NCBI GenBank assembly: GCA_913040875.1
Contig: CAJWHX010000256.1
Span: 1-5,556, forward strand
Length of the DNA stretch: 5,556 bases
Source of the DNA: an uncultured Pseudomonadota bacterium
GTDB lineage: Bacteria > Myxococcota > UBA796
Direction: 5' to 3'
The notes beneath the pieces are model-generated. The model made no database searches. It was not told the DNA's origin and worked only from the letters and a program-made list of their open reading frames with translations. This document shows, piece after piece, positions 870 to 5,556 of the stretch. How positions within the stretch are numbered: the stretch's first letter is position 1; each line of letters opens with the position of its first letter. Both the position numbers and the translations under genes were made by a program.

Positions 870-874
870 AGGAG
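870..874 (+). promoter_or_regulatory. Ribosome binding site of the HEPN-STAND gene
   Basis: AGGAG lies six bases before the ATG at 881. An in-frame TAA at 875-877 rules out any longer N-terminus, so the start is well fixed. Confidence 0.8.
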
Positions 875-880
875 TAATCC

Positions 881-3800
881 ATGATTCGTTTTCAAGGGTA
901 CGTCACAGAAGATGGATTCTATGTACTGGACACTGCAACAGGAGCAGTCAAGCTGGTCAAACCAAGTGGTGCTGCCGAGATTTGTACTGCATGGGCTACA
1001 CACATCTCAGTCGCACCACAAATCAGCACGCATACAGAGTCAAATCTACGACCTCCACAATCGCCAGTGGAACCCGCATACAATTTAGATCCACTAGACA
1101 TGATGGTCATTTCGTCCTTCCCCTACCCTATTGCAACAACCTACAAAAGTTTCCTGTACGAACCGGATCCAAGACTGCGATGCAAATTACTGGTTGATAC
1201 CTTCACCAACGTCATCAAAATGTGGGCTCTACAGATCTCAAGTGAGTACCTCACCGCAAAAGATGTCAAGGACACCGCCGTCAATCAAACGCTGAGTCGA
1301 GATTTCCAGCGCCCCTTGATTTCAGCTTGGAATTTGATGCTCCATCGATGCATCCCTGTATTGCAAGAAGCTGATGTTGAGTTCTTCTCACCAGAGTTGC
1401 CACGCTGCTATGAACGACTGGAGAGCCGTTGCAAAGACAAGTTCAGCGTCAAAAAAAGATACGAGGACAAAGAAGGCAACAGCAAGTTCAAGATCTCCAA
1501 ACTGGGTAAGATTCAAGCGATGATAAAATATCGCAACTCGCTAGCGCACGGATACAACCAAAGCACACAGCAAGCCGAGAAGGACCTCTCAATTTATGTA
1601 CCACTCCTGAAAGAAATCCTTGATGCCGCAAAGTTCATGACCAGCACCCCACTGTGTATGATTCAAAAGGAAGATGGAGCGTACAAAACCGTTCGATTGA
1701 TGGGCTTAACTCCAGCACCAGAAGATATGGATATCCCAGCTCTAGACTTGGATCCGGACACATCTCCTGTATTCTTATACAATCCCTCAACTAGACGTGT
1801 GCTTCCTTTGTTCTCATTCTTTGATGTTGAACAAACTGAAACCGACGGGATTGGGTTAAACCAAGACGTATTTCTATTTGAAGGAAGAACCAAGAAATCG
1901 GTCATCTATCTATCGACACAGGGCGAGCACCTAGAAAAGCAAAGTAAGTATCACTACTGGGTTGAACTCCTGTCTAAAAAGGCACTCGAAGTCAAACTCA
2001 TCAATCCAGACAAACTGGATTTGGAAATGCTTCATGCCGCCTGTACACGCATCAACAATCGAACTCTTACCAAGTTCCAAACATCCGGTCGCTTCATTCC
2101 GAAAGTCAGTCACTTTCGCACTGACTTCCACAGTCTGATGCAGCAATTCGTAGCTGGCGAGTTTCAGCTGTTTCTACTCACGGGGGACAATGGGGTCGGT
2201 AAAACGAACTATCTGTCTCAACTGGTCAAACGAAGTCAGAACATTTCACTGTACTATTCAGCCAATGAGTTCCGAAATACAGACCTAGGCTCCAAGATTC
2301 TTCGAGACATGGGCTTCCGAAGCATGTATCTGGAAGACTTCCTCGCCAATTCAAATGAGCATTTTACAAAGGCAGAACGCAAATTCTTTCTGGTGATTGA
2401 TGCACTCGGTTCATTCAATGGTGCATTACCAGAACTGATCGTCGCCATCAATCAACTGATAGAACAAACAGAAGATTACCCTTGGTTCCGGATTGTTGTG
2501 TCTATTCGCAGTGCGGCATACGAGAGATGCAGTACAAAAATACAGTCCCGATCTTCTCAGGCACTCTTTACAATGGAAGACCCACTCAAACCCGGTGAAC
2601 GGACCCACGAAATTCGGATGCTTGACTTTCCTGCCTCGATGGTGTCAGAGTGCTACGACAAGTACAGGAACTACCGATACGTAGATCCCGAAGACGAAGA
2701 AGACCCTGGAGTATACGTCTACCGACCTCGAACTCCCTTCTCCGATTTGGACTCCAATGGCAGTACGGTAGAACTTCTCAGACAACCTCTGATTATGAAA
2801 TTGATCATGAGCACGTTCCATCGACGAGAGCTGCCAAGTACGTTGACCGATGACGAAATCATGCAGATCTTTATGGAACAAGTCGTGGTTGAATCTCAAA
2901 ACCCAGGTCAGGGATACCCCAATCGAAAACGCTTCTTAGTCGCTCTAGCAAGGCAATTGTTTTCACTTGAATCTGAATCTGTAAAAGTGGAATCGTTGTA
3001 TGATATCCCGGTACTTGAAAAGGAAATCCGCAATCGAAATGCCGACAGTGCCTATGTTCAGTTGATTGACATGGGATTGATTCAAGAAGGTTGGCATGAA
3101 GAAGAGGCATTTGTATCCTTTGCAATGGACGAATTGCTTTCCTATCTTTTGGCTCAGATTCTAGAGCCCAAAATCAGTTCGGCTGATGATGTTTTGCAAT
3201 GGAGTGAAAAGGCACAGCACTTCACCCCAATTATTGATGCTGTTCGCATCGTCCTTCAACGTACCATTCGAGATGGTCGAGAGCACTTGTACCTAGACAC
3301 GCTAGACCTAATTGACGTAACAGAAGGTCAAATGGAACCGTCCAGCCTACTTATCATGCAACAATGTGTCCGTGTGATGTACAACCTGTGCATCAACAAT
3401 GATCCAAATCTGAACAAACTGCTGGAGCGACTCGAAGCAAACCCATCGTGGGGAGATTTATTGCTCATCCAACAGTTGATTGAACTCTGTCTAGTCAATG
3501 GAGTATTGGACTACATGGATATCTTATTGGAGACCGCCGAACGAGAAGGTACCGCTCTCGGAGGAGATGCTGAAATTGTGGCGTTACGACTCCAACTCAA
3601 GTCATTTTTCAAAATGGGTAAATACAAAATTGCCTCAGATTTATTTGCCTCCCGTATGAATCTTGGTATTGGAAGAGACGATGCGCTATGGGCTGACATT
3701 CTCTACTTCGCAATTAGAGTAAACAAAAGCATCGGACGTATTGATACGGCCATCGATCTGTACGAACGAGTCATCGGATTTGACACTCTAACTGTGCTCT

Positions 3801-4684
3801 TACGATCAGAACTGATGTGGCAAATGGGACTCATTCATTTTGAACAAGATCGTCCTGAAGTAGCGGAAATGCTACTGCTGCAGGCTGTCGAAGTGACAGA
3901 ACGACACGATTTAATTGAATGTCACATGAAACTATTGAATGCGCTAGCGCGAATCCAAATCGCAACTAGAAGGGTCGAAACGGGCATTGAAACCTTACGG
4001 ACGGTAATACAGATCACCAAAAAACTGGGGGATACAGTAACCGAGCTGTCGGCTCAAAACTCATTGGCCGTCACATTACGCAGTATCGGACAATTTGACC
4101 AAGCGATTGAAGGTCTGTTTAACTCTTTGGGTATTGCAGAACAGCTGGGACGTAAAGTCAGTCAGGCCATTGCGTACACCAACATCGGAGTCCTCTTCTG
4201 GATGTTGAATGATGAGCGTGCCGCTTCGCATCAACAACGGTCCCTGCAGATTTTCCAAGAGAACTCATTCATCCGAGGCATTGGGTACTGTCTATATCGA
4301 ATGATGATCATGTCACACGGTGACTCTAAAACCGTCAACACACTCTCTGCGGAACTGGAACAGTTATCTGAAAGCCTTTCCTATTCTAAGTTGCCTATTT
4401 GGTTGTCCGGTTCTCAGCTCCTGTGTTCACTCGAAGATGGTGACTCAGAGGTCATCTGGAATCAGGTGCAATCTTTGAAAGAAACACGGTCTGCAGTCAA
4501 TCTTGAAAACATCCACGTCGAGGATGGTCCTGTGTTCCCTTGGCTGTACGCTGCTCAGTACATGCAACGACAAGGTCATCTCACTAGACTGAGTGAAACC
4601 CTTTCCATGATCGATACAGAACTGAATGGACGGCACTTCCACAAACGTGAAGAACTCGAACGATTGCGGGAATATATTTTGTAA
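881..4684 (+). CDS. HEPN-STAND NTPase-TPR protein, probable NLR-like antiphage defence protein
   Basis: A complete 1267-residue protein. Residues 1-70 are a small segment of unknown fold. Residues about 75-250 are mostly helical and contain R218-N-S-L-A-H223, the Rx4-6H signature of HEPN domains, many of which are metal-independent RNases. Residues 255-395 form a strand-rich linker. The P-loop NTPase has Walker A GDNGVGKT (435-442), a Walker B strand FFLVID (D507 acidic), a sensor-1-like strand RIVVSIR (R543), and the LLRQPLIMKL segment (632-641) typical of the winged-helix entry in STAND/NACHT proteins. Residues 800-1267 are helical, with about six TPR-like pairs between 895 and 1130. By analogy with Avs and bacterial NACHT proteins, the C-terminus would sense a ligand, the NTPase would oligomerise, and HEPN would cut RNA to halt infection. 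That role is inferred. No transmembrane segment or signal peptide is visible, so it should be cytosolic. The Walker B tail is DALGSF, not the usual DALDE. No partner gene is adjacent. Alternative: a signalling STAND protein, though no DNA-binding output domain is seen. Confidence 0.85.
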   Translation: MIRFQGYVTEDGFYVLDTATGAVKLVKPSGAAEICTAWATHISVAPQISTHTESNLRPPQSPVEPAYNLDPLDMMVISSFPYPIATTYKSFLYEPDPRLRCKLLVDTFTNVIKMWALQISSEYLTAKDVKDTAVNQTLSRDFQRPLISAWNLMLHRCIPVLQEADVEFFSPELPRCYERLESRCKDKFSVKKRYEDKEGNSKFKISKLGKIQAMIKYRNSLAHGYNQSTQQAEKDLSIYVPLLKEILDAAKFMTSTPLCMIQKEDGAYKTVRLMGLTPAPEDMDIPALDLDPDTSPVFLYNPSTRRVLPLFSFFDVEQTETDGIGLNQDVFLFEGRTKKSVIYLSTQGEHLEKQSKYHYWVELLSKKALEVKLINPDKLDLEMLHAACTRINNRTLTKFQTSGRFIPKVSHFRTDFHSLMQQFVAGEFQLFLLTGDNGVGKTNYLSQLVKRSQNISLYYSANEFRNTDLGSKILRDMGFRSMYLEDFLANSNEHFTKAERKFFLVIDALGSFNGALPELIVAINQLIEQTEDYPWFRIVVSIRSAAYERCSTKIQSRSSQALFTMEDPLKPGERTHEIRMLDFPASMVSECYDKYRNYRYVDPEDEEDPGVYVYRPRTPFSDLDSNGSTVELLRQPLIMKLIMSTFHRRELPSTLTDDEIMQIFMEQVVVESQNPGQGYPNRKRFLVALARQLFSLESESVKVESLYDIPVLEKEIRNRNADSAYVQLIDMGLIQEGWHEEEAFVSFAMDELLSYLLAQILEPKISSADDVLQWSEKAQHFTPIIDAVRIVLQRTIRDGREHLYLDTLDLIDVTEGQMEPSSLLIMQQCVRVMYNLCINNDPNLNKLLERLEANPSWGDLLLIQQLIELCLVNGVLDYMDILLETAEREGTALGGDAEIVALRLQLKSFFKMGKYKIASDLFASRMNLGIGRDDALWADILYFAIRVNKSIGRIDTAIDLYERVIGFDTLTVLLRSELMWQMGLIHFEQDRPEVAEMLLLQAVEVTERHDLIECHMKLLNALARIQIATRRVETGIETLRTVIQITKKLGDTVTELSAQNSLAVTLRSIGQFDQAIEGLFNSLGIAEQLGRKVSQAIAYTNIGVLFWMLNDERAASHQQRSLQIFQENSFIRGIGYCLYRMMIMSHGDSKTVNTLSAELEQLSESLSYSKLPIWLSGSQLLCSLEDGDSEVIWNQVQSLKETRSAVNLENIHVEDGPVFPWLYAAQYMQRQGHLTRLSETLSMIDTELNGRHFHKREELERLREYIL

Positions 4685-4886: not shown

Positions 4887-5556
4887 TACGGTTCATCTTG
4901 CAGCCGAAACAATCCATCGGATGTCTTAGACAATTCCGATTGTGAAGATAACAATGGTACCATCTTCCCTTCGGCTCCAGAACTCTGCGATGGTTTGGTA
5001 AATGACTGTAATGGTAGTCTAGCATCCAATGAAATCGACGATGACGGCGATGGATATGTAGAGTGTACCATTGATGGTGGTGGTTGGGATGGGTCTACCA
5101 TTACGGGTGGAGAGGATTGTAATGACTCACAATTTGATATTAACCCAGGTGCCACAGAGGAATGTTTCGATCAAATTGATTCAGATTGCGATGGACAACT
5201 CGATAGCAACTCTTGTACATTGGAATTGATCATTTCCGGAGATACAACAAACTACGATGTATATTCTGAGGCAGGTTCACCAAATACTCCATTGGACATC
5301 TCGGTGATCGTTAACTCCGGCATCACTGTATACTCGACAGATACTGGTATACCTGCATTCACAACTGGCTCCCTACCCTCAGGCTCTCAAGTAACCATCA
5401 CCAATAACGGTACCATTCATGGAGCAGGAGGCAATGGTTCCTGTGGTGGTGGTGCTGGTGGCGATGCCATCCAAGTGACAGTCAACACTTCAATCAACAA
5501 CGCAAGTGGCGCCATATACGGTGGTGGCGGTGGTGGCAACGGAGACGACCCTGCCG
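4887..5556 (+). CDS. MopE-type metal-binding repeat and glycine-rich adhesin-like protein, 5'-truncated, probable pseudogene, open at right edge
   Basis: The frame follows an in-frame TGA at 4884-4886 and stays open to the window end, giving 223 residues. Residues 15-106 hold two MopE-like repeats, with ELCDGLVNDCNGS (32-44), DDDGDGY (51-57), EDCNDSQFDINPGA (76-89) and DSDCDGQLD (98-106). The paired Cys and Asp-rich DGDG loops suggest calcium or other metal binding on the cell surface. Residues 112-223 resemble phage-tail or adhesin modules that pack glycine-rich strands: strand-rich sequence, then TITNNGTIHGAGGNG (170-184) and INNASGAIYGGGGGGNG (203-219). There is no in-frame ATG and no signal peptide, and the first codon falls in the middle of a DGDGYG-like loop. 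The 5' part, including the export signal, is therefore missing or shifted in frame. Alternatives are a single-base assembly error plus a deletion, a silent cassette, or a start at a downstream TTG or GTG. Confidence 0.65.

Follow-up and report, generated by a model that had tools for sequence, protein, structure and literature searches.

What does a large gene on a short contig from an uncultured Pseudomonadota bacterium encode, and could its product act as an immune receptor? The window analyzed here is the entire contig CAJWHX010000256.1 (5,556 nucleotides, 5.6 kb), and the gene in question runs from position 881 to 4684 on the forward strand and encodes a protein of 1267 amino acids (aa). 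The initial annotation had proposed a single-gene immune system that joins an RNase-type HEPN motif (R218-x4-H223), a STAND P-loop NTPase with K441 and a TPR-like sensor in one chain. The intact open reading frame (ORF), the motif and the P-loop were all found at the positions given there, and both motifs are conserved in 61 of 61 family members. The gene is probably a self-contained NLR-like (nucleotide-binding, leucine-rich-repeat-like) immune receptor, a phage sensor with a HEPN RNase effector and a presumed antiphage role. The features of the gene are as follows (pLDDT, predicted local distance difference test).

870..874, +: AGGAG ribosome-binding site, 6 nt upstream of the ATG, from the sequence
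881..4684, +: coding sequence of the predicted HEPN-STAND-TPR protein, 1267 aa, intact ORF from ATG
881..991, +: N-terminal beta module, residues 1-37, with four short strands that weakly resemble a single beta-propeller blade
992..1063, +: spacer, residues 38-61, probably disordered (pLDDT <50)
1091..1648, +: HEPN-like helical domain, residues 71-256, predicted RNase effector (Pfam, conservation, AlphaFold2, profile-profile comparison)
1532..1549, +: Rx4H motif R218-N-S-L-A-H223, with R218 and H223 identical in 61/61 rows
1649..1939, +: beta-rich linker, residues 257-353, alignable in the family and in a sister family
2078..2650, +: P-loop NTPase core, STAND type by sequence, residues 400-590, nearest named relative Avs2
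2183..2206, +: Walker A, G435-T442 (P-loop G-D-N-G-V-G-K441-T), with G435, G438, G440 and K441 identical in 61/61
2399..2413, +: end of Walker B, D507-A-L-G510-S511 (family consensus D-A-x-N-E)
2651..3250, +: conserved post-NTPase region, residues 591-790 (alignment, AlphaFold2)
3338..4681, +: TPR superhelix, residues 820-1267, presumed sensor and fastest-evolving part (Pfam, AlphaFold2, pairwise identity)

Domain layout of the protein

Does the protein belong to a known group? Among 5.8 billion proteins 65 matches were found, 61 of which (the window protein included) score at least 424 bits; the next match below them reaches 57 bits over 9% of the query. These 61 proteins form a discrete, unnamed family. 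Its named members come from Bacteroidetes, Labilithrix and Polyangiaceae, and six genome loci were available: three from Flavobacteriales, one from Chitinophagaceae, one from another Bacteroidetes and one from an 'uncultured proteobacterium'. The family alignments had 50 and 46 rows, the first being the window fragment and the others picked from the 61. Profile scans covered 36 proteins, namely 33 of the 61 and three of the sister family.

AlphaFold2 modeled the protein with a mean pLDDT of 87.6 for residues 1-425 and 90.7 for residues 381-1267. The first model has strands at 4-34, helices at 71-255 and strands of the beta linker at 258-353; the second has an alpha/beta NTPase followed by 24 repeat helices, and Pfam reports a TPR_12 match in the window protein (E 1.5e-13). 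The top Foldseek match for the NTPase-TPR model was 6mfv, a STAND-TPR protein (E 2.8e-9). Superposition on 6mfv gave template modeling (TM) scores of 0.24/0.31 and a root-mean-square deviation of 19.9, so the parts agree with 6mfv while their relative placing does not. As modeled, the STAND layout of an NTPase followed by superstructure repeats is present. By analogy, residues 591-790 are presumed to be a winged-helix or ARC-like part.

What is the helical domain in front of the NTPase? Residues R218, N219, L221, A222, H223 and G224 are identical in 61/61 rows, and R218-x4-H223 has the R-x4-6-H form of RNase-type HEPN domains. The motif sits between helix 210-221 and helix 229-255 of a confidently predicted helical domain. 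RNxLAHG and the P-loop are not products of chance, since both are invariant in rows that share 26-40% overall identity with the window protein. The Pfam profile HEPN_MAE_28990 matches residues 107-232 (E 0.0065, 17.1 bits, cut-off 26.8) and RiboL-PSP-HEPN also matches (E 0.021, 15.1 bits, cut-off 28.4); at E <=0.1 these profiles match 22/36 (best 7.4e-6) and 12/36 (best 3.7e-6) of the scanned proteins. Profile-profile comparison with hhalign against two known HEPN groups gave 56% over 18 columns and 37% over 16 columns, with HEPN profiles that are thin (3 and 7 proteins; 4 of 14 fetched HEPN loci were left out for want of a usable ORF). Known HEPN groups gave 95% against each other, and the TPR and post-NTPase regions, used as controls, 0.1-0.2%. 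The invariant motif, the Pfam HEPN profiles and the short profile-profile match together suggest that the domain is HEPN-like and probably HEPN, its membership in the fold being likely rather than proven. It is predicted to be the RNase effector, which is probable.

The NTPase is easier to place. G435, G438, G440, K441 and D507 are identical in 61/61 rows, and the window protein has the Walker A motif and Walker B aspartate by which STAND proteins are recognized. In PADLOC, Avs2 profiles hit all 36 scanned proteins (best 6.8e-21) and cover residues 338-560 of the window protein. The Pfam profiles NACHT and nSTAND3 match 29/36 and 9/36 at E <=0.1. For the window protein, nSTAND3 reaches E 0.032, below its curated cut-off, and Pfam gave no NACHT row at E up to 10; the NACHT cut-off is passed by two of six relatives. 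Judged by sequence, the NTPase is of the STAND type and Avs2 is its nearest named NTPase. That the protein itself is Avs2 was ruled out, as the NCBIfam Avs2 model scores 38.4 bits against a cut-off of 1000 for this full-length curated model, with the match confined to residues 404-549. The earlier statement that no named Avs type fits therefore holds for the best match.

Which part could sense a ligand? Mean pair identity is 49.5% over residues 71-790 versus 23.2% over the C-terminal part, and the N-terminal part is the better conserved in 99.9% of 1711 pairs. Such a comparison may put repeats out of register, hence the C-termini were also compared locally, for pairs that share at least 75% identity and >500 aligned columns and whose C-termini both exceed 350 aa. 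In the 18 listed pairs that are at least 90% identical over residues 71-790, the best C-terminal alignment is below 60% in 12 and at 63-100% in six; these pairs are not independent, as proteins are shared among them and P0027 and P0028 are identical over 71-790. The pair P0002/P0004 is 92% identical over residues 71-790 versus 34% in the best C-terminal alignment, and in steps of 50 aligned positions its identity stays at 0.72-1.0 as far as position 900 and is 0.18-0.38 beyond it. The C-terminal arrays also vary in length among relatives; the six with longer C-termini give a weak TPR signal, and P0048 alone among them passes the TPR_12 cut-off. Near-identical repeat units are a sign of recent repeat gain: an 84-residue stretch with units 30-59 residues apart that are at least 60% identical occurs in 9/61 family members (unit spacing 40) and in 63 of the 120 sister proteins studied (spacing 42), and was not found in the window protein (0.2). 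A conserved effector-switch joined to a fast-changing repeat arm is the expected look of an arms-race receptor, an evolutionary argument from sequence that the arm may sense a ligand.

How would such a receptor work? At rest, the TPR arm would keep the NTPase closed. Binding of a phage protein to the arm would allow ATP-bound NTPase units to assemble, and the assembly would pair HEPN domains so that the R218/H223 site forms. The paired site would then cut RNA, and the infected cell would stop growing. Precedents for these steps are given in passages on Avs5 (PMC12931631) and Tha (PMC11087260).

Sister family and genomic surroundings

At one family locus (L002), a second protein of the same plan is encoded 116 bases downstream of the family gene, and the genome G005 carries two more copies of this sister plan. 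A search from one sister member returned 672 proteins at E <=0.001, of which the best 120, all scoring at least 1249 bits, were studied; the remaining matches may include TPR-only ones. The sister motif RNxxLGHG is present in 119 of the best 120, the exception (P0072) being an N-terminally incomplete piece. The N-termini of the two families differ. The beta module, in which R3, G6, G12, L16, D17 and G21 are nearly invariant, was recognized by pattern in 56/61 family members versus none of the best 120 sisters. By simple patterns, the latter carry a four-cysteine zinc ribbon (91 proteins), a SAM-like domain (16), a partial CPxC (9) or something else (4, of which P0155 and P0158 look SAM-like by eye). 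SAM_2 scores above its cut-off in the sister protein P0077. The SAM domain is a homotypic interaction module, and the N-terminal position is therefore probably an adaptor slot. As the sisters carry a zinc ribbon or SAM there, this module probably serves to tether or to recruit a partner.

Several other genes were seen beside sister genes. A protein of ~186 aa is encoded directly 3' of the sister gene in three of seven sister loci (L002:18834-19394, L049:13673-14236, L051:7499-8059); neither Pfam nor PADLOC matched its L002 copy, and the protein is a possible partner. The divergent neighbor of one sister gene (L049:6166-9405, -) encodes a 1080-aa protein with RNQDAHA in its N-terminal third and Fib_succ_major near its end. 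Near another, a 1452-aa leucine-rich-repeat protein (L046:925-6412, -) adjoins an AAA_5 ATPase.

What surrounds the family genes? Annotation covered L002-L006, with L001 at the ORF level. The family gene of L005 is split into two ORFs, and within the 9.4 kb downstream lie genes for an ADP-ribosylglycohydrolase, a WYL regulator, NADAR and AbiEi/AbiEii, then a sister gene (L005/L046); this is a defense-rich stretch. L003 encodes an AAA_14/DUF4143 protein that matches PDC-S01, a candidate system of PADLOC (E 1.1e-165), and also an integrase and a caspase-domain protein. L002 is mixed, with the paralogue pair, a thioesterase and a DUF4407/OmpA/DUF350 cluster. A blastp comparison of the neighborhoods of all six family loci found recurrence in L002 and L003 alone, limited to DUF4407-cluster genes plus one small protein; with so little recurrence no obligate partner is seen at these loci. 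The cluster of DUF4407, OmpA-domain and DUF350-like genes lies near HEPN-STAND genes of both families (L002:2055-7796, L003:304-6007, L049:73-5516), and L051:15104-15613, at a contig edge, shares its DUF350-like gene (Pfam names from the L002 copies).

Both families are rare and patchily distributed in genomes. In the order of G002, 7/299 genomes match over the HEPN or NTPase part (three family seeds and four sister genomes) and 35 further genomes match only over the TPR part. With a profile built from both families, matches came from 1/396 genomes in the order of G005 and from 1/71 in the class of G001, and in both cases the matching genome was the seed. These counts are lower bounds, two candidates having been scored in most genomes of the large searches.

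In the window, the upstream ORF is on the opposite strand, and the next forward-strand ORF outside the gene (among listed ORFs of at least 60 aa) begins 310 bp downstream. The stand-alone setting proposed earlier fits these 5.6 kb of contig, whose ends limit the view. An ORF at 4995-5555 (+) has a MopE-type metal-binding motif (E 4.1e-10) and runs off the contig end; the same ORF has sub-threshold EF-hand matches. The database cluster of the window protein consists of two sequences on four contigs, the longest of which measures 5556 bases, as the window does.

Weighing the receptor reading

The NLR-like reading draws on the invariant RNxLAHG and P-loop, the HEPN matches in relatives, the Avs2 matches, the 6mfv match and the C-terminal turnover, and further on the patchy occurrence, the defense neighbors at L005/L046 and the adjacent family and sister genes in L002. 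The domain layout and NLR logic of the initial annotation are supported by the Avs2-like NTPase, 6mfv, the invariant HEPN-type motif, helices 71-255 and the turnover. Its RNase-type HEPN stands as an invariant motif in helical domain 71-255, with the fold itself only probable.

Several observations count against this reading. Both HEPN Pfam scores of the window protein fall below the curated cut-offs, and profile-profile comparison aligns the domain with known HEPNs over few columns (18 and 16). Structure prediction, which the annotation had named as a check around residues 75-250, gave a confident helical domain, and a HEPN chain is absent among the Foldseek and VIA matches listed for the 425-aa model. 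Two family genes have housekeeping neighbors: L004 is flanked by a chorismate-binding/TPP-enzyme pair on one side and carbamoyl-phosphate synthase on the other, and L006 has PheT and HisS at least 3.5 kb upstream. Searches of plasmid, phage and viral collections gave no match, and thus no link to mobile elements is seen beyond the integrase near L003. The presumed antiphage role has defense genes nearby at L005, an integrase and a PADLOC candidate at L003, and housekeeping genes at L004 and L006. The housekeeping neighbors of these last two differ, so homologs are not consistently in housekeeping loci.

Is the window copy itself still a working switch? It is the longest end branch of the family in a quick tree (1.08 versus a median of 0.13). 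Its HEPN part is almost as well kept as in other members, with a mean identity to the family of 0.546 (0.581 among family pairs), but its NTPase has diverged, with one of 0.300 (0.461 among family pairs). Near-invariant columns are changed at 13/28 positions in the NTPase, 13/42 in the following region, 7/61 in the HEPN part and 1/23 in the linker; the 13 NTPase changes could also mean decay, a further point against the receptor reading. E511 is present in 60/61 rows, and the window alone has S511, its G510-S511 replacing N510-E511 of the consensus D-A-x-N-E. R549 is intact. Since Walker A and D507 are intact, this copy probably still binds ATP; ATP hydrolysis may be weakened or lost, as E511 is a serine. 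Glutamate 511 was not taken as STAND-defining because the h4D[D/E] form is missing from Avs5, itself a STAND protein, as well, according to passages of PMC12931631. There, one acidic Walker B residue is enough and the E410Q mutant still protects; this tolerance suggests that the E511S change may modify the switch instead of abolishing it.

These features invite a tentative and rather doubtful extension, in which the genes form a modular receptor kit: a constant HEPN-STAND chassis would be combined with exchangeable N-terminal tags (beta-propeller-blade-like, zinc ribbon, SAM), swappable TPR sensors and paired paralogues per genome. The window lineage, with its RNase constrained and its Walker B glutamate lost, would be an ATP-locked or helper receptor. 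Alternatively, the window copy might be a derived helper or decoy that binds ATP without turnover, acting either as a pre-armed receptor or together with a different HEPN-STAND protein in a mixed complex. The changes at 510 and 511, the larger share of altered near-invariant positions in the NTPase than in the HEPN part, the long branch and the adjacent genes of L002 fit this idea, as do the STAND pairs described in passages of PMC8195603, in which an eroded member is fused to GT4 or HEPN. Yet Walker A, D507 and R549 are intact, the window has no second HEPN-STAND gene, and the Avs5 precedent means that the change need not matter; this explanation is unlikely.

Could the protein instead be a STAND regulator of the MalT/AfsR kind, reading a physiological signal, with HEPN as an RNA-binding or mRNA-cutting output outside defense? 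Matches between the TPR region and models such as AfsR and FimS, which fall far short of the cut-offs, and the housekeeping genes near L004 and L006 speak for it. No DNA-binding domain is among the Pfam rows of the window, however, occurrence is patchy, and the sensor half evolves far faster than the rest, unlike a receptor of a constant ligand, all of which makes a regulator very unlikely. That the domain is some other helical adaptor with a chance RNxLAHG, as the sub-threshold scores and missing fold match would allow, is highly improbable given the motif's conservation in both families, two HEPN profiles positioned over it and controls so far below the HEPN comparison.

If the receptor reading is true, HEPN RNA cleavage joins the outputs of Avs-like receptors. 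Natural sensor changes on a near-identical chassis (P0002/P0004) offer a direct test of whether the TPR part alone sets the phage sensed, and the missing Walker B glutamate of the window copy is a natural test of the need for hydrolysis.

Comparison with known systems

How does the protein compare with systems already described? Avs2 (AVAST type 2) shares the STAND NTPase core with an effector in front and repeats behind; the window protein differs in having a HEPN-type domain in the effector position and no full-length match to the Avs2 model. HEPN-STAND(-TPR, S1) fusions were predicted in bacteria by Anantharaman et al. (2013; PMC3710099), in passages that list a HEPN domain with a STAND ATPase and TPR, and the kind was thus already predicted in print. 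For the initial annotation, this means that its architecture had been listed before. In those passages the fusions are filed under Swt1-like HEPN, while the window family matches MAE_28990 and RiboL-PSP; set apart by description alone, the family may be among the proteins named there (Npun_F6454 and others).

Avs5 is likewise a STAND protein with TPR or Sel1-like repeats that tolerates a single acidic Walker B residue, and the main text of PMC12931631 does not contain the term 'HEPN'. The TIR-STAND-TPR proteins of P4-like satellites are described in passages of PMC9122126 as an antiphage system with the same single-chain effector-STAND-TPR plan, their effector being TIR, SIR2, Mrr_cat or BpuSI_N and not HEPN. 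Tha contains HEPN, acts against phages and is activated by phage tail proteins, with RNase activity reported for it; the abstract of PMC11087260 mentions no STAND or TPR part, and the likeness is one of description, not sequence. DefensePredictor, as reported in PMC13092281, adds 31 validated systems, four with HEPN and seven with P-loop NTPase domains, one of which could be of the HEPN-STAND-TPR kind. In literature covered mostly at the level of abstracts and passages, no experimentally tested HEPN-STAND-TPR defense protein was found, and HEPN-STAND and similar hyphenated names returned 0 papers. Beyond the initial annotation, the new points are the sensor turnover, the sister family with its N-terminal exchange and the missing Walker B glutamate of the window copy. 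The layout as a whole resembles that of animal and plant immune receptors.

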